This document shows, piece by piece, positions 1 to 36,312 of a stretch of 64,000 nt of DNA. The DNA comes from Crossaster papposus (taxonomy: Eukaryota > Echinodermata > Asteroidea > Velatida > Solasteridae), in the NCBI GenBank assembly GCA_037893245.1, contig JBAIAA010000513.1:1-64000 (forward strand), written 5' to 3'. Position numbers and translations under genes: made by a program. A model generated the notes under the pieces. That model did no database searches. It worked only from the letters and a program-made list of their open reading frames with translations, and had not been told where the DNA came from. The first letter of the stretch is position 1. Each line of letters starts with the position of its first letter.

Positions 1-221
1 CACGCAAGGTTTTCCCCAGATTCAAAACGGATGACACATAAACACATCACGAGCAAGGCCGGAAATGTCTGTCAGCAGCGAAAATGCGAAAAAAGGCCGA
101 AAATGCGTGGGTGTGCTTCCCGGTACCATCGGCCTGAACCCGCCTTTGATTGAGTTTCGTTAAAAATAATCCCGCACCTTGGCTTGGTGAAGGTAAAATA
201 ATCCCGGCGCGAACTGGTTAA
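1..221 (+). mobile_element. TTAA-type MITE (family A), left end cut by the window
   Basis: It ends GGCGCGAACTGG-TTAA. The inner motifs GAGCAAGGCCGGAAATG and GGGTGTGCTTCCCGGTA are shared with at least eight other copies in the window. TTAA target sites with CCAGTTCGCGCC termini fit piggyBac-type mobilisation (inference). Confidence 0.8.
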
Positions 222-692
222 GGACAATTTTATTCTCTTTTTAATATTTAATAAACCCTGATTTTAACCTCTACCCAGTTCCGTCTCATTTTGTCCGAAA
301 CCCCTCACAAATTTCCTAACCAAATAGAAATTCTATGAAGTATGCCTCTTATCATACGATTGGATGTTCATAAAGTTGAGGTGCGTTCCACTCGAGCGAA
401 CATTGCCAACATTTGCCAACAACGCAAACAATTTCCCATTGGATCTGCACAAACATTTAGCAATCACTGACGAACATTTGAATTGTTCGCACCCCAGTGT
501 CTATTAAAACAAATCTTGTGGAGCTAAACGTGGTTTAAAAAAACCTAAGTAACATTGTTGCTACACGTAATGTATAGCGAGCTCAACATGGGTATAAAGA
601 GGGACAATACTTTAAATAGGCCTCAATGAACATGACAACCAACACTGTTTGCAACCGAGATTACCATTTTGTTGGTATACAATAATCACAAA
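222..692. other. No gene seen; degraded repeat
   Basis: The ACCTCTACCCAGTTCCGTCT block at 270 recurs at 38610 and (inverted) 60540, so it is an old dispersed repeat. Confidence 0.5.
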
Positions 693-1112
693 TATGTGAC
701 CCACCACCCCAAAACCAGGCTAAAGTCAAAATTGCTCATATGAGAGATTTTTATACCATTAGATTGCTAGCGTTTTAAGTTTTAAAATGATACATCACAT
801 GCACCAGTACCGCTATGGAATGAAAAGTAACGACGCGTCAAAAAGTGACATTTTGTTGCCATTCGCGGCAACAAGTTTGCTCAATTTGAGTAATAGCAAC
901 GACAACAAAAATCAGGAGAAGGCCGATATTATCACTTTCGGGGATTTTTCAAAAGGTTTAAACAACATGAACAGCCTATAAATTAGAGTTTTAACTAACG
1001 ATTTATGAAGAAAAAAACCCAATCGACCGGCAACACATTTTTGTGTGTACAATGCCATATCTCGAAATAGCATTTGCCGACTTCCGCCTGGTTTTGGCCT
1101 GGTGGGTCACAT
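693..1112. mobile_element. TIR element, about 0.42 kb (TGTGACC family 1)
   Basis: TATGTGACCCACCACC..CCAAAACCAGGC at the left and GCCTGGTTTTGGCCTGGTGGGTCACATA at the right (spelled across two blocks) are inverted. Small ORFs inside are not recognisable. Confidence 0.75.
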
Positions 1113-1689
1113 ATAGGCCCAGATTGAACGTTAACGCAATCGTTAAAAGTAAGATTTTAGTAACAAAAACACAAAAGAAAACCCCAAAATAAGAAGAAAA
1201 CAATTACAAAAACATATTAAATTCATTTCATTGGAATAAATCACATAGAAATGTTACAACATATTAACTGCTATTGTCTTATATTCCATTTAAATAACCA
1301 ATCACAGGCACTGTTAGATTATCGTAATTATGCAGAAAAAAATGACAAAAAAACCAACAACTTTCTAGCCAAGTATCCTATATCCAACTATGGAAACATA
1401 AAATAATGAATTCTCTACATCTTTGATATCACACCAATATATAAAATTAATAAATTCACATTTTGTACAGGTATATAAATTTGTTTGCACATTAAGTTAC
1501 TAATGAATGCCACATTATTGCCGATTTTTTTTTTTAAAGTCAGTTTTTTTTACCTCACAAGTCATGCCACATAGCAGGGGATGAAAAATTAATATCCTTT
1601 GTCATGGTTCATTTCAGTAGCCTGGGATTTGGCTTGGGATTGGAGGACTGACTCCATTACAACTTAGTGTCCTGTCTGTCTAACTTCCT

Positions 1690-1690
<1 letters not shown>

Positions 1691-1725
<35 letters not shown>
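1691..1725. repeat. Poly-C tract, 35 bases
   Basis: Uninterrupted C run. Confidence 0.95.
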
Positions 1726-1837
1726 ACCACCCCACCCTGTGTGACGTAACATTTATAATCGCCGACTCATTGGTCAAGTTTCTGTTACGTCACGTAATTA
1801 TGCACGCAACGTCACACGCGCATGCAAAATGCAAATG

Positions 1838-2842
1838 CGACGCAATTCTGCTTGAAATGTTTCAAGCGATTATTAGACGACCTATTCGAAGGTCATGCAT
1901 GCTCTATAATGTACGTTAAAGGTCGCCCGCATCGGCGACCGCTGCATACCGCGATTAAGACGTCTTGCAACCAAGACTAGGTTTATTGTGCGTGTGTTCA
2001 CGATACATGCAAAGGTGAATTCAAGAAAAGGTTTCAACCCAAACTTTTCATAAATGTAGCTGATTTGGTACGAAATGACCCACGTGTCTCATGAGAAAAT
2101 GAATAACATGTGTACTGACAAACAAACAGCATGTAACATGTGATGTGGCATGTCTAGTACATCTTTAAATACAGCAAATCAATGACCAGTGATCTTCATT
2201 ATCACAGAACGTGAATCGCCAAACATGCGATTCTGACAAGGCTTAACAAATGTCTGGTGGATGCCTTCAATTAAGCCAGGAATTTGGGATTCCCATTTTT
2301 GTTTCGTCTCGAGTTTGATCAAATTTGTAGTCGCTTCAAGTGTAATTAGCACTCAGGGGGAGATCCAGACTGCTATTTGCCAGGGGAGGGGGGGGGGGGG
2401 GCTATATAGGTGACCGCAAAGATGTTAATATTCATATGATCACAGCAGCATAAACAAAATCAAATTGCCGGAAAGGGGGTGGGGGGGGGGGGGGGGGGGG
2501 GGGGGTGTTCCCCTTGTTGGATCCGCTAGTGGCATGGTATAAGTGGCTAAAATGTCAGTAACAATTTGACTTCTCACTGTACATGTAGCGACGCAAAATC
2601 TATGTTATACAACAACCTTAACAAATCCCCGTCATCTGATTGGTGGATTGTTGATCACATGCATTGAATTATTCATCCCAATGCATGGCACAGCCAGACA
2701 GCAAAAATAGAAGTTCAACGGTATGCAGCGGTCGCCGATGCGGCCGACCTTTAACGTACATTATAGTGCATGCCATGACCTTCGAATAGGTCGTCTTGGC
2801 TATCTCATAATCGCTTGAAACATTTCGAGCAGAATTGTTGAA
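1838..2842. mobile_element. Foldback element with about 125-bp inverted arms
   Basis: The left arm (1838-1960: GCTTGAAATGTTTCAAGCGA, CGACCTATTCGAAGGTCATG, TAATGTACGTTAAAGGTCG, CGCATCGGCGACCGCTGCAT) is inverted at 2717-2842. The centre holds a 25-base poly-G tract. A 35-base poly-C tract lies just outside the left arm. Confidence 0.8.
2481..2505. repeat. Poly-G tract, 25 bases
   Basis: Uninterrupted G run between the arms of the foldback element. Confidence 0.95.
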
Positions 2843-3892
2843 CTTTTGTTTTCATTGCACGGTCACACCATTGGTCGCACTCTAACCAATCAGATGACAA
2901 GGATTTTATTCAAGGATTTATAATTTGTTAACCCTCCCGTAACAATTTATTTTTAGGTTTTGCCATATATTTAGTATTTTAACAACATTTTGCAAATAAC
3001 GACCTTATGTCTGAATTTTTCAGTTGGGACCTTATAGCCATCAAACGACGAATCCTACATGCACATAATGTGATGACAAAACGCTCGTGCAAAAAAAAAA
3101 TCAATCATTCAATCATCGGAGATACTCTTAACACAAACCCTATTATTCAACTGACCCTACGAACTTGAGTCATCTCAATAAATACCCGGGAAGATTTTCT
3201 GACAAGTTTATCCACAATGAACCGGTTGGAATTCTACCGAAATCAAGTCATCAGTATCCAAACAATGCCGTAACTTTATTGCTAGAAGATTCCGAAGGAA
3301 GTTAAGAATTTGGGCAACTACATGTAGTAACATCTCCCAAAAAGTTGGCCTGGTAGCGGTTAAACTTGTCTGTAACTTATCCCAGGTATTTAATCATTCC
3401 TTTCACTGTTGCATTTTGATCTGATGGAAGTTTTGGTTGCCTGCTGACCATCCCTCTCACTGCCTGAATGTGGTTATTTCATTGGTCATCTGGTCTGTCT
3501 GCCTGGCGTCGCTGCTTGGGGTTCCTTACCTTACCTTGTAGTCTAAACTGTCTCTGTATCAAACATGAAGTACATGTACCTACGCGTGTCTAGCAGCTTC
3601 ATACAACGGTCCCGCCCGTCGCTGAATGTACAACTCCCTGAGTATTGAAACAAGAAAACAACAGTGTTTCATAACAAAACAACAAAATAAATAAAATTAG
3701 ACGGCCTTAACATTTCACGACCTTTCTCAAAGGCAAAATACAGGCTGGCTCATACTTCATGCAAGTGCAAATTATTCAATGCGAATTTGATCTAAAAAAC
3801 AATCGATGAGGAATTTCCGTTGAAGTGTCTTCATCTTTTGCGAAACCTTGCCTGACATCACCAATTCGCATTCACACTGTACGAACCAGCCT

Positions 3893-4775: not shown

Positions 4776-5984
4776 TTAATTGATCCGGCAGGTTAATGTA
4801 CAGTCCTGGATACTCACCACTTTCCCTGGCCGTGCCCACGTACTAACAAACCCTTCTTGGCAGGCTGTGACTAAACAGTCCTCCCTGAAGACCAAGGCAG
4901 TCAGTCGCTCCTGGGCAATCTTCTTGGCCACTAGGGGCTCCAACATCAACACCTCGTCCAGCCGTGGGCAGGCCTGACTGCCCACGCGACAGCTCTCCTC
5001 TAGCAATCGCAGGTGCATCTTACTGCCGTGAGAGTGCATGCTGCTCTTGCTGCTCACGCTGTCCTTCTTGTGTTTGTCCTTGTGCTTGTCCGACAGCGAT
5101 AGGTTAGAGAACTTGCTGCTGATGCTGCCGGTGTCTGCATGGTGCCCTGTGGCATTACCCAGGGATTTATGAGAGGCGATGTTGTTTGACTGTGACATGG
5201 ACGTCTGTCCCACCGACAGTGCGGTGTTGGTCCGTACCCGTATAGGAGGCTGGAACATGCGTAGGGTGTCCTCTGTGAACTCCCATAGACAGAGGTTTGT
5301 GTCCTGTCCGACGGATCCAAAGCGGTATGACACCTGCGGGACACTATTCTCCGAGCTGCTGATCATAGAAGTTCTTGAGTGGCTGCTGTACGTCCGTTCC
5401 AGGCTGTTTATCCCATTGAAGTCATCGTCGCTGCCGTAGAACGCCGCTTCGTTTTGGAGCACAGCAGTGGTGAAGGGGTCAAAGTTGACCACACTGACCC
5501 ACGAGCCGTGGCCGTGACCGCGGGCCACCACTTTCTTTTCGTGAAACGACCACACCGTCACTAGATCGTCCTCCCCACCGACAACCATGTACTTATTATC
5601 GGGGCTCCAACACACACACGACAGACCCCCAAAGTAGCTCTTCATACTGCCATGCAGGTCCATAGTGTCATAATCAAAGACTCGTAGGAATCCGTCCTGC
5701 GACACGCAAGCAATATACCTGGCATCAGACGAGAAGGCAAACTCGTTGAGTGCGCCCTCCCCAAGCACCCACCTGAAGACAGGATTGCGCGTAGACTTGC
5801 TCTTGCAGGTGTGGACTTGGTACCCGTCTCCTTGCTTCAGGAGCTGGTAATGGGGTGGTGTGTTCACAGGGGGAAGCCCCTCGTTGTACAGGTACATCTG
5901 GCCACTAGAGTGTGCCGCTAGAAACATGTGCTCCGTTCCTGGAACCCAAGACAGGCAGGTAACCTTTGTCTTGTCGATTAGCCT
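4776..5984 (-). CDS. WDR20: WDR20 coding exon 3 (main WD-repeat exon)
   Basis: The acceptor is ATGCAG before AGG CTA ATC GAC (RLID). The exon holds most of the beta-propeller and the variable serine-rich insert. The reading frame is open to TAA at 4776, giving a tail after GKVV of SIQDCTLTCRIN. That tail is probably intron read-through, because GTG|GTGAGT at 4818/4817 is a strong donor, but use as a real alternative C-terminus cannot be excluded. Confidence 0.92.
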   Translation of the reverse strand, partial: RLIDKTKVTCLSWVPGTEHMFLAAHSSGQMYLYNEGLPPVNTPPHYQLLKQGDGYQVHTCKSKSTRNPVFRWVLGEGALNEFAFSSDARYIACVSQDGFLRVFDYDTMDLHGSMKSYFGGLSCVCWSPDNKYMVVGGEDDLVTVWSFHEKKVVARGHGHGSWVSVVNFDPFTTAVLQNEAAFYGSDDDFNGINSLERTYSSHSRTSMISSSENSVPQVSYRFGSVGQDTNLCLWEFTEDTLRMFQPPIRVRTNTALSVGQTSMSQSNNIASHKSLGNATGHHADTGSISSKFSNLSLSDKHKDKHKKDSVSSKSSMHSHGSKMHLRLLEESCRVGSQACPRLDEVLMLEPLVAKKIAQERLTALVFREDCLVTACQEGFVSTWARPGKVVSIQDCTLTCRIN

Positions 5985-8900
5985 CTGCATTGTCAATTGC
6001 AAATAGATGGAAATTCAAAATTATTCTTTGTCTTTGGTAATCTCACGACTGTAATCCTGAGACATAATGATGTCACACTCTTTAATGAGAGCTCTAGTGG
6101 CACTCATTCAAACTTGGCTCCCATTATGCCTCTAGTCTAGACTAATCCAGACTGTAACTCATTCAGCACAAGCCAAGCTGAATCAAGATATCAAGTCAAG
6201 ATAACAAGTTAAGAGACCTGAAGATATACTAGGAAATCCAAGACAGAGGATTGAAAGGGTAATTATAGGAGATGAGCAACCTTACATACAAGTACACAAT
6301 TGCTCTCTTTTGTCTAGAGTAATACAAAATTAAAGGATTTTCCAGCATCTATGACCACTTTAAATAGGTCCGTGTAATAATTATTTGCTATTAAAAATAC
6401 TAACCCACAAATTTCTGAGAATTACAATAAGGAAAATCTTGTACATTACATGTACATTTGTGTTTCAAGAGTTTTTCTTAAGGTGCCATCTTTAAATACT
6501 GCAAAGAGGCCATAGACAACGTCAGTTAAAAAATGCTGTAACTGACATGGCAAATTCAATAACCTTTTGCAACTCCAAGAGACATTGAAGCTTACAGAAG
6601 GGAATTTTCTGATCCTCTAAACCATCTACCCTTTCCCAACCAACCAACCTACCTCCTCATTGTAAATCTTACTGATGTCCTTGCGTATCGGATCTATGAG
6701 CTGCACCTGGCCAGCTGAGAAGCCAACCAACAAGGAGATGCTCTGAGCGCTGGCTGTGAACTGATTGATGGCATGACAGGTGGGTAGGGTGCCACCTTTG
6801 TAGGTCCTCTTATCCAGAGGTTTGGTCAAATCGGCCGCCTGTAGGAAAGGAAAGGCAAGAAATAGTGAGGATGACGATGACAGTTGGGGCATGGTTGTTG
6901 GCAGGCAAGGGGCAACCTTTAACCCTAACCCTACCTAATGCTACTTTTTACTACTACATGTAGTAGTAAAAAGTAGTATGCAGTACTCTCACTGACTTGT
7001 GTGCAATGCCTGTAGTAATTGTTAGTATTTGGTACTTCACCCCTTATTGCACTCGTAGTACTTTTTAGCATTGGGTCCCTCTGCTTGCCGAGTGTGCATG
7101 GCCCATGTATGCTGTGTAAGGTGTTCTAAATTCTACATCAAAAATTGTCGCTTGGGACACAATGGGTCAAGGCTGGACTACTGCATTTTTTGCCAGGTAC
7201 GTATTACTGACCTGTATTGCCACTATTAGTATTTTGTAGTTGGCAGTATCTGTACTCTATCAGTACACACCCAATCATCAGTCACGAAGAGACCCAATGC
7301 TACAAAATACTAAGTAGTATTCTGTAGTACGCAGTTCTTTAGCCCAAAGTAAGGCCTAGGGGGTTAGGGTTAAGGTACCCTTATTCAGAGGGTTAGGTTA
7401 AACAAAAAAACACGAGGATGATGGTTGTGATATGGTGCATGTTGATAAGCAAGTAAAACCTTTAGACTCTTATTATTAAATATCCAGGGGCCGATTTCAT
7501 AAAATTAAAAAAAATGACAGATCAACACGTCACGAGCAAGGCCGAAAAATATGTCAGCGACTGGCTCGCAGCGAGCGAGACCAAAAATATCAAGTTGTGC
7601 TACCCAAAGATGTCGGCCTGAACCCGTCTCGGATCAAGGTTCATGAAAAACAATCCAGCGCCTTGGCCCGGTCATTGTAAAAAATAATCTCATGCGCAAA
7701 GTGGTTAATGTTTAAGTATTTTGTTTTGCTTGAATACACGCATTACAAGTCCATGTACATTGTACATCTACATAAGACAGGGCTGGAAATATCCACAAGA
7801 CTGGTAGAGCGTGTGGAGTGATTCAAGTGTCGGTCTAGTGCTTTATATCTTAACTACATGCACATGTACATGTAGATTAATGGTCTAATGGTTTTAAAGG
7901 TTTTTGCAGATATCAAAAATATTTACTACCAAATTATTAAGAAATTATTAAGCAAAATGATTGCGCTAGATATCATGTAATTATTTCCGAAAAATAAAAT
8001 ATTTATGGTCTGCTGTCATTTCTTGTTATGTACCTGTAAGGTACCCTGATATATTTAAAGTATTCATGTACATCCTTATGGGTTGGTTTGTGGAAATACA
8101 GTACCATACAGAAACGCCCATGTACTGTCTAGAAAGTACAGTATGTATTAAGACTTTACATGTACAGGTAGATAAGATAAAACAGACAAAATAAATAGTT
8201 ATTACGAAAAATAAAATGTTTATGGTCTGCTGTCATTTCTTGTTATGTACCTGTATGGTACTACTTAAAGTCTTTATGTACATGGGCTGGTTTGTGGAAA
8301 TACAGTACATATAGAATCGCCCATGTACTGTCTAGAAAGTACAGTATGTATGAAGACTTTACATGTACAATACAGGTAGATAACATAAAACAGACAAAAT
8401 AACCAAGTCGTCCCCCCCCCCCCCCCCCCCCCCCCTCCTCTAATGTTAAGGACATAAGAGTAGAGACAGCTTATGGGCTATCAGGGTTCTCATGGGGTCA
8501 GGTGACTGATAAGATGGATTATGAATGAGAGAATCACTTGGTTGATAGTACACGACATATCTATTTAAAGATAGTATCGGTACATGGTTTGTCTGTAATT
8601 GGTTTGTCTGTTTTTAATAGATGTGTTTATATTATAGTAAATAATGTGACACTTAACTATTATTAAAGTTTTGTATTCATAAAAGCTGGAAAAACCAAGA
8701 ACATTGATCCTAACTTTCTACCCTATTTTTCTTACACATTTTTAACCTGAATTCGGCAAAATCCTCCAATATTTATTACTGGTGACCACTGCCTGAATTC
8801 TGCAAAATCCTGCAGTGGGTTTACCATTGAGCTATAAAGCAGCCAAACATGGAACAAACACCTGCTATAAGTGCCCTATTACAACAAGGGTCTGCACACA

Positions 8901-22806: not shown

Positions 22807-23010
22807 CAGTGGATTACACAGTAACCAACAGTGTTTTCTCATCATGTACTTCTGTTGCCTGTATCTCTGACACTAACAGACATCATTAATTTTATGAGGT
22901 AAAAGAAGAGGAGTTAAGGTGTCTTTGGCCGGTAATTTTTTGTTTTCTTGTTTTGTTTTTTTTGCTTTTTACATTAGCACATTAGGCACACTTACATTTT
23001 TCAATCGCCG

Positions 23011-23335
23011 CGCCACACCAGCGCCACACCAGCGCCACACCAGCGCCACACCAGCGCCACACCAGCGCCACACCAGCGCCACACCAGCGCCACACCAGCG
23101 CCACACCAGCGCCACACCAGCGCCACACCAGCGCCACACCAGCGCCACACCAGCGCCACACCAGCGCCACACCAGCGCCACACCAGCGCCACACCAGCGC
23201 CACACCAGCGCCACACCAGCGCCGAACCAGCGCCACACCAGCGCCACACCAGCGCCACACCAGCGCCACACCAGCGCCACACCAGCGCCACACCAGCGCC
23301 ACACCAGCGCCACACCAGCGCCACACCAGCGCCAC
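23011..23335. repeat. 11-bp minisatellite, unit CGCCACACCAG
   Basis: About 29 nearly identical tandem units; one unit is changed (CGCCGAACCAG near 23221). All frames are open because the unit has no stop, so the long ORFs here are artefacts. It lies just past the YqaJ gene. Confidence 0.95.
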
Positions 23336-24369
23336 AAGGTTTTCACAAATTTGTCATAGCCCAGGCTGGGTTCAAACCCCCAACCCGCAGAACTACCCAC
23401 ACCCCAAACTACCCACACCCCACAAATTAAATGCTCAAGACCAGTAGGCCCCGGCACTTCCAGTATTGCCAATATCATGTAAGGGTTCAACCAATAAATG
23501 TCATAAGGGACCAAACTTTATGCGACACAGGAAAAAGTGATTAAAACTGGTTGGTGTTTTATCAACATGTGACAGTTTCTCGACCAATGGGAATAGCTTA
23601 ACTCTTTCGGGTATTCAAGAAGTATTGTCAGTGTGCAGCGCTGCCCATAATGAGGTGCACATTGAATTTTTATTTGCAGCAAGTTGGCAGTCTCAGCCGT
23701 TTAAGAATTTACGAGGTTTTAACGGGAGTTCAGTATTACCCCTCGAAAAACAGACATAACATAAAGTGGAAGTTTAAGAATAAAATTGAACAGTGAGTGA
23801 AATTCGATAATATCTATGTCGATTGATGCCAATTTTTAATGATTATTTCTGATTAGTTAGCCTTGTGAAAAACAACCCCTTTATGTTTTGAGTGACCCTG
23901 ACTGTTGCAGGAAAGTTAAAGCAAACATTTGTTTTTTGTTAGAAAGTTGAGGAGTTACGCTTTCGAAGTCTACCACATCTCTGCCGGTTTGACAAGCAAG
24001 CTTTTATTTAGATGCGAAATACGGCAAAATTACACACTTTCCTGTCTGAAATACACGTGTTTACATATTCGTGGATGTATCGCATGTCAACGTTTGCATG
24101 CTTTTATTCAAAACAAACAACGTGTACGCGTCAACAAGATGAACAACAATGCTTAATACACAGATCGCCTGATCAGGTCAGCTGACAGCCTTTGCAGAGT
24201 CGAGTTATGTGATTGGTCAGGACGTAAGCTGTTTTGGGGGATTGACCAATGAGAAATGAACGCTCGTGCAATACTGTTCTTTCACAACTTAATCCAAAAC
24301 ATTCGGAATACTCGTGAATTTGAGTGACCCCGACTGTTTTGGATCATCAAGTGAACAATAGTTACGAAA

Positions 24370-25491: not shown

Positions 25492-25608
25492 GAATATACA
25501 ACATTTGCGTGAAAAAAACAAATTATTATAAGATGCCTTACTGGACTATTGGTGAATGACAGTCTAAAGCATCCTGTAAAATTATGGCACCTGATGTGCC
25601 GACATTTT

Positions 25609-25675
25609 TAGTCCATGGGCCAGAGGCCAAATATTCACTTATTGGTACCACCTGAGGTGGCAAAATCTAAATATG
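25609..25675 (+). repeat. Left terminal inverted repeat of the XPG-type transposon
   Basis: It shares CCATGGGCCAG, CCAAATAT, GGTACCACC and GAGGTGGCAAAA with the inverted right end. Confidence 0.8.
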
Positions 25676-26316
25676 TTTTTTTGAAAGGTCTATGTCTAAG
25701 GATGATAGATTGATGTGATAGCAATTTCAGGGTGGTAGCTTATTGGTAGTAAATGCCAACTTTTTAAGCCTAATCAGAATGAGCTTACTACTTAAATCCT
25801 TAGCACTAGGGTTAGGATACGGTTGAACAATTTACAGTTACACAATTATGCTTTGTTGTGCAATGATGAAACTTGGTCAAATTATTGTTTAGCTATAGGT
25901 TTTTTTAAATGACGTCACGAAAACATATATATATAGCCTCCAGAGGGCGCTGTTCGTAGACGTATTTAATGTACTCATACATTACACAATTTGTTTAGAT
26001 GGCTAAACATTGTTTTAAATGTTATTCTTTTGTTAGTAAGTCATTTCGTTTGCCATGTGTCAATGTGCACGTATATGACACTAAATAAAAGCAACTTGTA
26101 TGACCATACAACGTCCTGTTCACATCAATAGTTACAAAATAACCTGCTCTTCAGTGGTGCATATTTTGTCCGCTACGTTTTAAGGCAAATGGTAGAGGAA
26201 AAGTAACAGCTACTTTAGGGTTACTAAAAAAGATTGAAAGTTGGCAACAGCCAATGCAATTAGCTGTAGGGTTAAATTGATTTTGTTTCTGTATATCGGC
26301 TGCCTGTCCACTCCCG

Positions 26317-28752
26317 TTACTCGTCATCTTCATCCTCGTCATCAGAATAATCTAGTTCACCTTCAGCATCTAATTCCTCCTCCACTTCCCTCTGGTTTGT
26401 GCACGTCTGGAGTTTACACATATCTGTGCACTTCAGTCCATTGGCAAGACATGTGCAGCCTGGTAGCTTGCAAGAGCACACACACTTGCAGGACATCAGT
26501 TCCAACACGGCGTTTGGTGCTGGGGACCCGCGCATCCACTCAATGGCAAGATTGCCGTCATCAGCTGTGGTCCATCCATACCCCTCTGGATTTGGAATGG
26601 TGGGTTCGCTTTGAAGACATCTCCTCCACACTGCAGTTTGGTAGTTCGCTCGTAAGACGTGCATCAGTAGACAGTCTTCACATGGTGGCAATTGACTGGA
26701 CTCAATCTCTCCCCGTTTGACATGAAATAGCTCATCATGCAGTTGGTTGACATTAGAGGTGCGGCTGGCAGGAGCATACATTTGGCAAGTAAACCTCTGC
26801 ATCTCACCAAAGAGTTCCTCTGATACTTTCCAAGAGCGTCCAAGCTCACCGAATGCCGCTTGGTAGGTCGGATCTTTTCTTACTTGCTTCAATGCATTTA
26901 ACTTTCCACGGCCTGCAAAAGCACTAACAGTATCGCAACCTGTCATTGCATGAAGCCCAACCAGGGCATTACAAACAGTGCTCCCGATTGATGATGCCAG
27001 TTTCCGAATGTCGATGAATCGTGTTCGGTTCAGTGTTCCACACTTCTGGTATATAGGGCAAGGTATGTCCTTGTTGGAGCAAAGACACAGTATGAGGACA
27101 TCTGTATCCTCAGCAGAGAATACGATGGCCTTGTAGCCATGCTCCGATGCGTGTAATGCATGGAGAAGCAAACGGGTGTCAGCTTCCTCTTGGGACGACT
27201 TCAGTTCTTTTACTTCCTCCCAGTTATTCAATGTAATCTTGTAGCAGAACTCTCCACATGTGACAATAAGCAATTTGTCTACGAGCTTGTGTACGTGCTT
27301 GGGCAATTTCCAATCTTCAACAAGGAATTTGATGAGGCTGGTCTTATTGAAAGAGCTGCAGAGATATTTCCGCCATTGCTGGATTTTGTGGCCTGGTGCA
27401 ATGTTCTTGAATTGAATGCCAGAGCTGGACCCTCGATTACATCGCTCGGCATTTTTGATGGATTTATCCAAATACACATCAAATACAACATCGATTCTGT
27501 GACTCTTTTCTCCCTCGCGCAGCACTAGAGACAGAGCAGATTCTGCTAACTCTGCAAAAGTCATGCCGGTCCCTTTCATCTTCTGTACAAGGCTCATTCC
27601 ATCGATGATGCATGCTGATGGGTTGGGGATGGTTTCTGCTGGAGCCACATTCTTTTCGAGCTCTCTGGCAAGTGCAGCTTTATTTGTCTTGCGAAGAGAC
27701 CCATCACCATTGGAGAGTGCCCATGGCAGAGGTCCCAATGGGTGCGCTAAAACTTCACTCATATTTACCTGTCTGCTCTGGGCAACAATGATCATATGAC
27801 CAAACAATTTTCTATCTGCCTTGAGGACAATCTCACTAGCTTGAGATTTGCAGCTGACCTTCTTTCTGTTCAAGTGAGTGAAAGTTTTCAAGCTCTGCTT
27901 TTTCATCTTGTCATGGAATTTGGTAGTTGGCGGGTCTTTCTCCAAGCGATCTTCCTTGAAATTCTTGTAAGTTTGTTCACCTACCGAGTGAGCCTTGAGA
28001 AGATCATTGGCAACGTCTGATGTAGCCAGGCTACTAGTGGACAAGCTGATCAAGTCATCTTGATCCTGGCTCAGTGGATTGATCCAACTGGTTTCCATTA
28101 GATCAACCAAAGATTGTATGTCAGACTCATCTTTGCGAATTCTAGGTAGTTGCAGATCTGGGTGATTCAGCTGGGAGCCACCTAGACCTCTCATGTCTCT
28201 AAGCTGTCTGAGATACTTGCTCCTGTACTCCGCTGTCAGATAGTACTTGCTGATTGCCCCTGGTTTTAGGCTAAACCCCTTGGTCCCGCCGGCAGTTTGT
28301 GTATCTTTGTTTACTGTCTCTTCGATGGTTTGGTCCACTGGAATCCTTCCAAATGGATTTGTTTGTCCAATCTGCACTGAGAAACCACCATTCATGAAGT
28401 GGGCATGGACCTATGGTTCATCGATGTGCAGTCGGGACATTTGTGCATGGTAGTAGGGGAGGTATCGGGCATAGTTGAGTCTGTCGTAAGCAAAGCACCA
28501 TGGAATCATGTCCTTGATGGATGCCAGATGAAGAATCCAATCGCCTTCTCTTGATGCTCGCATAATCTCCACCGTATCCACATAGGACATCCAGAATGTG
28601 GACAGATTTCCATTTCCATCTCTGAGGAAGCCAAGATAGACGTCAAACAGCTGCATGACACGGGCACATGATTTTGTATCCAAGACCTGCTGAAACTGTC
28701 CGTCACACACACAATCGTATTTCTGTTGATTTACATAGTTCACCGGAAAGTA
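26317..28752 (-). pseudogene. XPG/FEN-like nuclease ORF of a DNA transposon, with one in-frame stop
   Basis: The frame is open from 28752 to 26317 except for a single TAG at 28413-28411 (GAT GAA CCA TAG GTC CAT). This divides a 113-codon 5' part from a 692-residue 3' part. Numbering from the Met at 28395, the 3' part shows a complete XPG/FEN acidic set: IIDGMSL (D265), VVFDVYLDKSIKNAER (D306), SQEEADTR (E403, E404, D406), SAEDTDVL (D430, D432) and TGCDTVSAFAGRGK (D488, with the helix-hairpin glycines). Residues 636-667 form a dense cysteine array (CKCVCSCKLPGCTC...) like CXC/CRC DNA-binding modules, followed by an acidic tail. An intron acceptor (TTATTTCAG) precedes 28752. The ORF lies inside terminal inverted repeats, so it is a transposon protein, perhaps Academ-like. 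It is recently inactivated, or the TAG is polymorphic. Confidence 0.8.
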
Positions 28753-29100
28753 CTGAAATAATGAATATTTTTCCAGTTGTCAAGCCAGAGTACCGTAACA
28801 TACCAACCCCCCCCCCCCATCCCCCAAGGCAAAATTTTAAGTTGTGACAATCAACATGCACATACTAATTGTTCACCTGTCTGTACTTTATTGCCATTTA
28901 TCACATGCAATAACAGCGTAATTAAGTTTATGCCAACCCATATGCTAAACGATGTACATATAGGCCTATAATGCCATTTTAATGTAACTTAATGGCAAAA
29001 CGCAAAACTAAAAAAACAGAGACTAAGCTACTTATTTGGAGATGCTATCACATGTTTTTGTACTTAGGTCGATCTTACAAAGCATTTTGCACCCTTAATG

Positions 29101-29147
29101 TTTTGCCACCTCGGGTGGTACCGATATTTGGTCTGGCCCATGGACTA
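29101..29147 (-). repeat. Right terminal inverted repeat of the XPG-type transposon
   Basis: Reverse complement of the left end. Differences are single substitutions and a small indel. Confidence 0.8.
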
Positions 29148-29149
29148 TT

Positions 29150-29392
29150 TTAACCAGTTCGCGCTGGGATTATTTAAACATCACTGAGCCGAGGCGCGAG
29201 ATTATTTTTAACGAAACTCGATCCGAAGCGGGTTCAGGCCAATGGTACTGGGAAGCACACCCACGCATTTCCGGCCTTGCTCGCTGCTGACAGACATTTC
29301 CGGCCTTGCTCGTGACATGTTTATGCGTCATCTGTTTTAAATCTGGGGAAAACTTTGCATGTATATACGTCCTCCGGCCTGAAATGGTTACC
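29150..29392 (-). mobile_element. TTAA-type MITE family A
   Basis: TTAA-CCAGTTCGCGCTGGG at the left; the right end is degraded (CGGCCTGAAATGG-TTAC). It abuts the right TIR of the XPG-type transposon. Confidence 0.75.
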
Positions 29393-35885: not shown

Positions 35886-36028
35886 ACCTCAAGGGTTACC
35901 TCAAGGGTTACCTCAAGGGTTACCTCAAGGGTTACCTCAAGGGTTACCTCAAGGGTTACCTCAAGGGTTACCTCAAGGGTTACCTCAAGGGTTACCTCAA
36001 GGGTTACCTCAAGGGTTACCTCAAGGTG
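35886..36028. repeat. 12-bp minisatellite, unit CTCAAGGGTTAC
   Basis: About 11 perfect units followed by a junction (CTCAAGGTGTTAC) into the next array. Confidence 0.93.
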
Positions 36029-36312
36029 TTACCTCAAGGTTTTACTCAAGGTTTTACTCAAGGTTTTACTCAAGGTTTTACTCAAGGTTTTACTCAAGGT
36101 TTTACTCAAGGTTTTACTCAAGGTTTTACTCAAGGTTTTACCCAAGGTTTTACTCAAGGTTTTACTCAAGGTTTTACTCAAGGTTTTACTCAAGGTTTTA
36201 CTCAAGGTTTTACTCAAGGTTTTACTCAAGGTTTTACTCAAGGTTTTACTCAAGGTTTTACTCAAGGTTTTACTCAAGGTTTTACTCAAGATTTTACTCA
36301 AGATTTTACTAG
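36029..36312. repeat. 12-bp minisatellite, unit CTCAAGGTTTTA
   Basis: About 23 units with single changes at the right edge (CTCAAGATTTTA). The period is a multiple of 3 and the unit lacks stops, which explains the overlapping ORFs in several frames. Confidence 0.93.

Follow-up and report, generated by a model that had tools for sequence, protein, structure and literature searches.

The element and its ends

The DNA analyzed here, a stretch of 64,000 nt from contig JBAIAA010000513.1 of Crossaster papposus (hereafter the window), carries at positions 25609-29147 a DNA transposon of 3,539 bp with inverted ends (TAGTCCATGGGCCAGA...), the termini of which read TAGTCC. The element is flanked by a 3-bp target-site duplication, TTT at 25606-25608 on the left and a matching TTT at 29148-29150 on the right, with a TTTT run on each side. 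The left terminal inverted repeat (25609-25665, plus strand) pairs with the right one (29101-29147, minus strand). An earlier reading of this DNA from its letters alone (the sequence-only reading) had described inverted termini of about 45 bp; these inverted ends are real, but rather than forming one block they are interrupted, with a perfect outer repeat of 16 nt (25609-25624 versus 29132-29147) and an inner repeat of 26 nt that is 92% complementary (25640-25665 versus 29101-29126), together spread over approximately 57 bp. Further inward, a subterminal inverted repeat at 25713-25742 (plus strand) is 73% complementary to its partner at 29024-29053 (minus strand). The corresponding subterminal pair in a relative of the element, L042, comprises 37 nt, is 86% complementary, and ends in GGTAGCTTA, as in the window copy.

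The main open reading frame (ORF) of the element encodes 692 amino acids from its ATG and occupies 26317-28395 of the minus strand. Within it lie an XPG/FEN-like nuclease region (residues ~255-548; 26752-27633, minus strand) and a cysteine-rich C-terminal domain of the CXC (Tesmin/TSO1, LIN54) type (residues ~634-667; 26395-26496, minus strand). Comparison with a close copy, L009, revealed a coding remnant upstream of the ORF on the same strand (28396-28694) with an in-frame stop at 28411-28413. Elsewhere in the window, a 408-aa open frame on the minus strand at 4776-6002, which matches Pfam WD40 (E 8.7e-11) and which is presumably WDR20-like, looks like a host gene exon. Two tandem arrays, one at 23010-23336 (11-bp unit, ~30 copies) and one at 35888-36310 (12-bp unit, ~35 copies), are each situated inside a long repetitive open frame.

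Copies of the element in the genome

The genome from which the window derives (1.02 Gb in 1,841 contigs) was searched with the element, its ends, and its ORF. With the 3,539-bp element as query, at least 142 matched pieces were found genome-wide, with 40 of 119 candidates scored. A total of 42 matches to the left end (20 nt, at most 2 mismatches) and 39 to the right end (23 nt, at most 3 mismatches) were detected, while the reversed control pattern of either end yielded 0. The ORF, used as a protein query, gave at least 85 matches when 64 of 2,268 first-look candidates were scored, and these were situated in frames of up to 1,666 aa. The search by ends and ORF that the sequence-only reading had proposed recovered further copies and relatives. 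Fifteen of the 42 left-end matches, with 1-2 mismatches (e.g., on C246, C56, C676, and C802), fall outside the places matched by the element query; these may be short non-autonomous derivatives or may belong to related families.

Copies were compared at 34 loci, namely 33 fetched stretches and the window. Both ends, allowing at most 1 mismatch in 16 nt, are kept in 20 of the 34 loci, which reduce to 15 distinct sites because some loci have flanks in common. An exact 3-bp repeat adjoins the ends at 14 of these 15 sites, as compared to 12 of 210 pairings when left and right flanks of different sites were mismatched. The one site without a duplication is that of a 782-bp copy in L040, which retains both ends and from which the ORF is absent. 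Duplications across the family sites include CAT, CTA, GAT, TAG, AAT, ATT, TAT, TTT, TTA, and TAA. Comparison of the copies bears out the earlier proposal of a transposon bounded by terminal inverted repeats, with ends common to the copies and target duplications of 3 bp. It should be noted that flanks are identical at different places in L021-L023 and in L029-L031 plus L034, indicating duplicated segments or duplicate assembly rather than separate insertions. In L036 (C114:415700-424800), 8,529 bp separate the ends, approximately 4.3 kb of foreign sequence lies inside, and the TAG duplication is intact.

Full-length relatives and internal deletions

Eight stretches with long frames, read together with their flanks, served as the intact-type set. 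Each of these eight families encodes its protein in one single frame of 1,283-1,624 aa from ATG, and in all eight proteins the window ORF corresponds to the C-terminal half, with identities of 56% for L042 (1,535 aa), 51% for L043 (1,563 aa), and 34-37% for the other six. As judged from this alignment, the 692-aa ORF represents no more than the C-terminal half of a protein that comprises approximately 1,500 aa in intact relatives. Among these eight, conspicuous ends are confined to L042, in which TAGTCCATGAGCCAG is present on both sides (identical in 15 of 15 nt), the duplications are ACC, and the span is 7,097 bp; for L049, ends (TAGGCCATGGGCC) with an ATA duplication and a distance of 7,158 bp were picked by their likeness to the window ends and were not top by score, and the other six families are without recognizable ends in the fetched flanks. 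Several long-frame families (with frames as long as 1,666 aa) were encountered repeatedly, on separate contigs and at near-equal scores, which may reflect recent activity of these relatives.

The longest relative of the element among the copies, L011, has 6,406 bp between its ends, the ends themselves being degraded. The window copy matches L011 at 2-3100 and at 5926-6403, the two matches overlapping by 3 nt where they meet (28694-28696 of the window), such that 2,825 bp of L011, including the coding region of the N-terminal half, are absent from it. The loss of these 2.8 kb makes the window copy a non-autonomous derivative. The whole length is covered by L011 alone among the 34 loci, L011 being the reference itself, and the next best copy covers 4,412 of 6,406 positions. 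Six different deletions of the 5' side of the gene could be distinguished: that of the window; one common to L009 and L010; one each in L012, L013, and L014; and a form with breaks at 3492-3495 and 5936-5937 in L011 numbering, which is present in 22 loci (L015-L024 and L026-L037). The 22-locus form is found at 10 distinct two-ended sites, and the left flanks of L009 and L010 differ from each other. The presence of the same deleted forms at several sites indicates that they moved after the deletion had occurred and thus that a protein from another copy was needed. When mapped on L011, the six deletions (L009-L037) end within approximately 170 bp of one another (L011 5906-6076) with the nuclease half kept; this clustering may be due in part to founder effects and to the query that was chosen.

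The XPG/FEN-like nuclease region

The sequence-only reading regarded the main ORF as an XPG/FEN-like nuclease with the acidic residues of the metal site at D265, D306, E403, E404, D406, D430, D432, and D488. All eight are at these positions, and G495, G497, and K498 are present as well, although the ORF is merely the C-terminal half of the protein to which this region belongs. Conservation was evaluated in 17 proteins from this one genome (the window ORF, L009, the eight long frames, and seven fragments), which were selected for long frames, broken copies from the subfamily of the window being excluded, and which are not independent in that three pairs (L009 and the window, L103 and L042, L109 and L049) show 97-99% identity. 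In this selected set the eight acids are invariant (17 of 17), within a total of 48 invariant positions among 431 window positions; of 47 acidic positions, nine are invariant, namely the eight named acids and E317.

A profile of residues ~255-548 was aligned by hhalign with 17 archaeal FEN1 proteins (20 had been taken from 53 loci and three dropped for stops). The alignment extends over 230 columns and sets D265, D306, E404, D430, D432, and D488, in this order, against acids of FEN1, places K314 and E317 opposite the K and E behind the second FEN1 motif, and leaves two of the eight acids unpaired, with E403 opposite a glycine and D406 opposite a gap. The score of 27.0 is above all of 400 column shuffles, the best of which reached 24.2, yet the probability is 4.7% (P 0.0085). 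With an earlier profile of 13 sequences, the alignment comprised only 109 columns, beginning ahead of D430 and running beyond D488, at a score of 28.3 (best of 300 shuffles, 26.8). In that earlier comparison, scores of 23.2 and 24.3 were obtained with reversed profiles and of 18.3 with the N-terminal half against FEN1. The profile comparison with FEN1 that had been suggested thus came out in favor of the resemblance as regards the shuffles and the six paired acids and against it as regards the probability and the unpaired E403 and D406.

Could the acidic region be XPG-like by motif only, as some other PIN-like or metal-site domain that is perhaps non-catalytic? Such a reading would accommodate the low hhalign probability, the absence of any XPG family among the Pfam matches of 10 family proteins at E 10, and the 21 genome-wide matches to Pfam XPG_I (PF00867), 0 of which are on the element. 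It would also accommodate the PDB sequence searches, in which XPG/FEN chains were absent, and a single-sequence AlphaFold model of window residues 190-630 with a mean pLDDT of 31. The window ORF itself is without any Pfam match, and in the PDB it matched only hnRNP H at a chance-level E of 0.69. However, the invariance of the acids throughout the selected proteins and the pairing of six of them, in order, over 230 columns at a score that no shuffle attained speak for a FEN1-type arrangement, and a resemblance of motif only is considered unlikely. Kinship with FEN/XPG nucleases is thus supported by motif and order, and is not proved as a fold. The likeness to these nucleases consists of the ordered acidic motifs, a G-rich hairpin-like signature, and the in-order profile alignment to archaeal FEN1, whereas the element differs in being missed by Pfam XPG_I, in its two unpaired acids, and in that the region is part of a transposon protein and is followed there by a cysteine-rich domain. 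A search of the literature for a FEN1/XPG nuclease combined with a transposase found none, and a search of viral contigs with the family alignment (A1) returned no relatives.

Other domains of the protein

The C-terminal cysteine pattern resembles that of CXC proteins (LIN54, Tesmin/TSO1), from which the element family differs in having one CXC stretch, with which a transposon protein terminates. Pfam TCR was matched in nine of 10 family proteins at a loose limit of E 10 (best 5.1e-6), the window ORF itself being without a match; in five proteins that were examined closely, E ranged from 0.00023 to 3.2 and none reached the curated cut-off. In a PDB profile search, the LIN54 chain 5fd3 was matched twice (E 0.0019).

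In the N-terminal half, which the window copy lacks, D483, D567, D570, E573, D760, and E843 (A1 columns) are invariant in eight of eight proteins, and D567/D570, D760, and E843 form a candidate DDE set. Two of 10 proteins showed weak matches to DUF6589 over this half (E 0.013 and 0.03), and zinc-finger-like motifs are visible by eye in the alignment at the N-terminus of the intact relatives. No helicase family is among the eight Pfam families found in the 10 proteins at E 10. Literature searches for CXC combined with transposase, and for DUF6589, returned nothing pertinent.

Probable assignment to Academ

PIF/Harbinger and CACTA/EnSpm make 3-bp target duplications, those of PIF/Harbinger being of the TWA type, and CACTA/EnSpm termini read CACT(A/G). 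The nuclease of Academ elements (AcademX) is XPG-like. As described in the main text of a published account of the Academ superfamily, duplications are 9 or 10 bp in AcademH and 3 or 4 bp in AcademX, and these lengths are related there to an encoded helicase (AcademH) or nuclease (AcademX); that main text calls the AcademX enzyme a nuclease, does not use the word XPG, and gives 3 bp for Zator (PMC10045372). In a bivalve repeat library, the mean length of Academ elements is reported as 5,565 bp, along with a bivalve-specific amplification (PMC10294476).

The element shares with AcademX inverted ends common to its copies, a 3-bp duplication (at 14 of 15 sites; 3 or 4 bp in AcademX according to PMC10045372), and a nuclease-like region in a long protein. 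From this comparison of features, no difference from AcademX was established, the window copy being without the N-terminal half. The element agrees with AcademX with respect to duplications, motifs, and inverted ends. AcademH belongs by name to the same superfamily, but its helicase and 9-10 bp duplications contrast with duplications of 3 bp and the lack of a helicase family in Pfam scans of 10 proteins, and AcademH was rejected as an assignment. The naming of Academ as the closest superfamily, with duplications of 3-4 bp, by the sequence-only reading agrees with the 3-bp duplications, the ends, and the acidic motifs.

Alternatively, the element could be a transposon of another superfamily with 3-bp duplications (PIF/Harbinger, CACTA/EnSpm, or Zator) that carries a nuclease-like region, and the 3-bp duplications attributed to Zator in PMC10045372 would be consistent with this. 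CACTA/EnSpm was discarded on account of termini that read TAGTCC rather than CACT. PIF/Harbinger was discarded on account of duplications that extend beyond TTA and TAA to CAT, CTA, GAT, TAG, AAT, ATT, TAT, and TTT. Moreover, the nuclease region is contained within one long frame in eight of eight families, down to 34% identity, and thus is not a one-off capture. Membership in one of these other superfamilies is regarded as very improbable. Taken together, the element is very probably a cut-and-paste transposon of the Academ type, from the nuclease-bearing AcademX lineage, in a non-autonomous form that arose by internal deletion.

Selection on the window copy

The dN/dS of the window ORF is 0.88 versus L009, 0.87 versus L010, and 0.88 versus L013, at a dS of just 0.012-0.016, and 0.71 versus L012. 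Other close pairs gave 0.55 (L009-L013), 0.71 (L042-L103), and 0.47 (L049-L109). Between families, synonymous sites were saturated in four of four pairs and dN/dS was not computable, while the acidic motifs stay fixed. These values fit near-neutral decay of the window copy, with few changes behind the figures. Selective upkeep of truncated, nuclease-only copies is disfavored by the values of 0.87-0.88, which likewise stem from few changes and stand beside the 0.55 of L009-L013. The idea of a host gene, or of a domesticated nuclease, situated by chance between inverted repeats, as might be imagined from a frame that is open over 692 aa, is hardly credible given 20 two-ended copies at 15 sites, 14 of them with target duplications, and a dN/dS of 0.87-0.88, from few changes, versus three close copies.

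A possible mechanism of transposition

In intact relatives, one protein of approximately 1,500 aa would combine zinc-finger-like motifs, a candidate DDE half, the FEN1/XPG-like region, and the CXC-type domain. Such a protein would bind the inverted ends through its zinc and CXC domains. The DDE half would then cut the ends and join them to the target with a 3-bp stagger, the length of which is shown by the duplications, and the XPG-like half may trim or cut 5' strands or flaps that arise from excision or integration. The window copy would have been moved by protein supplied in trans, or it would have lost its N-terminal half after insertion.

A more specific proposal would draw on the Tn7 system, in which labor is divided between TnsA and TnsB. 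By analogy, the two nucleases of the single Academ polypeptide might constitute a eukaryotic counterpart of TnsA/TnsB, the DDE half making and joining the transferred 3' ends and the XPG-like half cutting the non-transferred strand or trimming 5' flaps. This proposal is put forward tentatively and is judged rather doubtful. Were it true, it would bear on the difference between the 3-4 bp duplications of nuclease-bearing Academ elements and the 9-10 bp duplications of those with a helicase.

Implications

The sequence-only reading held that tying the ORF to clean terminal inverted repeats would explain uncharacterized animal proteins of this type as transposase-associated nucleases. The tie itself stands, in that the ORF belongs to a transposon with terminal inverted repeats; its novelty does not, since PMC10045372 already describes AcademX, a nuclease-encoding Academ lineage that makes duplications of 3 or 4 bp, and the link between nuclease and transposon is thus not new. 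The element looks like a further member of an already described type of transposon and, as such, is largely ordinary. What it adds is a multi-copy case from one genome, in which intact relatives and several deletion forms are found along with the ends and the target duplications, of a kind of transposon whose nuclease region escapes the Pfam XPG_I model. The eight-acid motif, along with the cysteine-rich tail, could help to recognize similar uncharacterized proteins as derivatives of transposons, and with the intact relatives the role of the nuclease half becomes open to testing.
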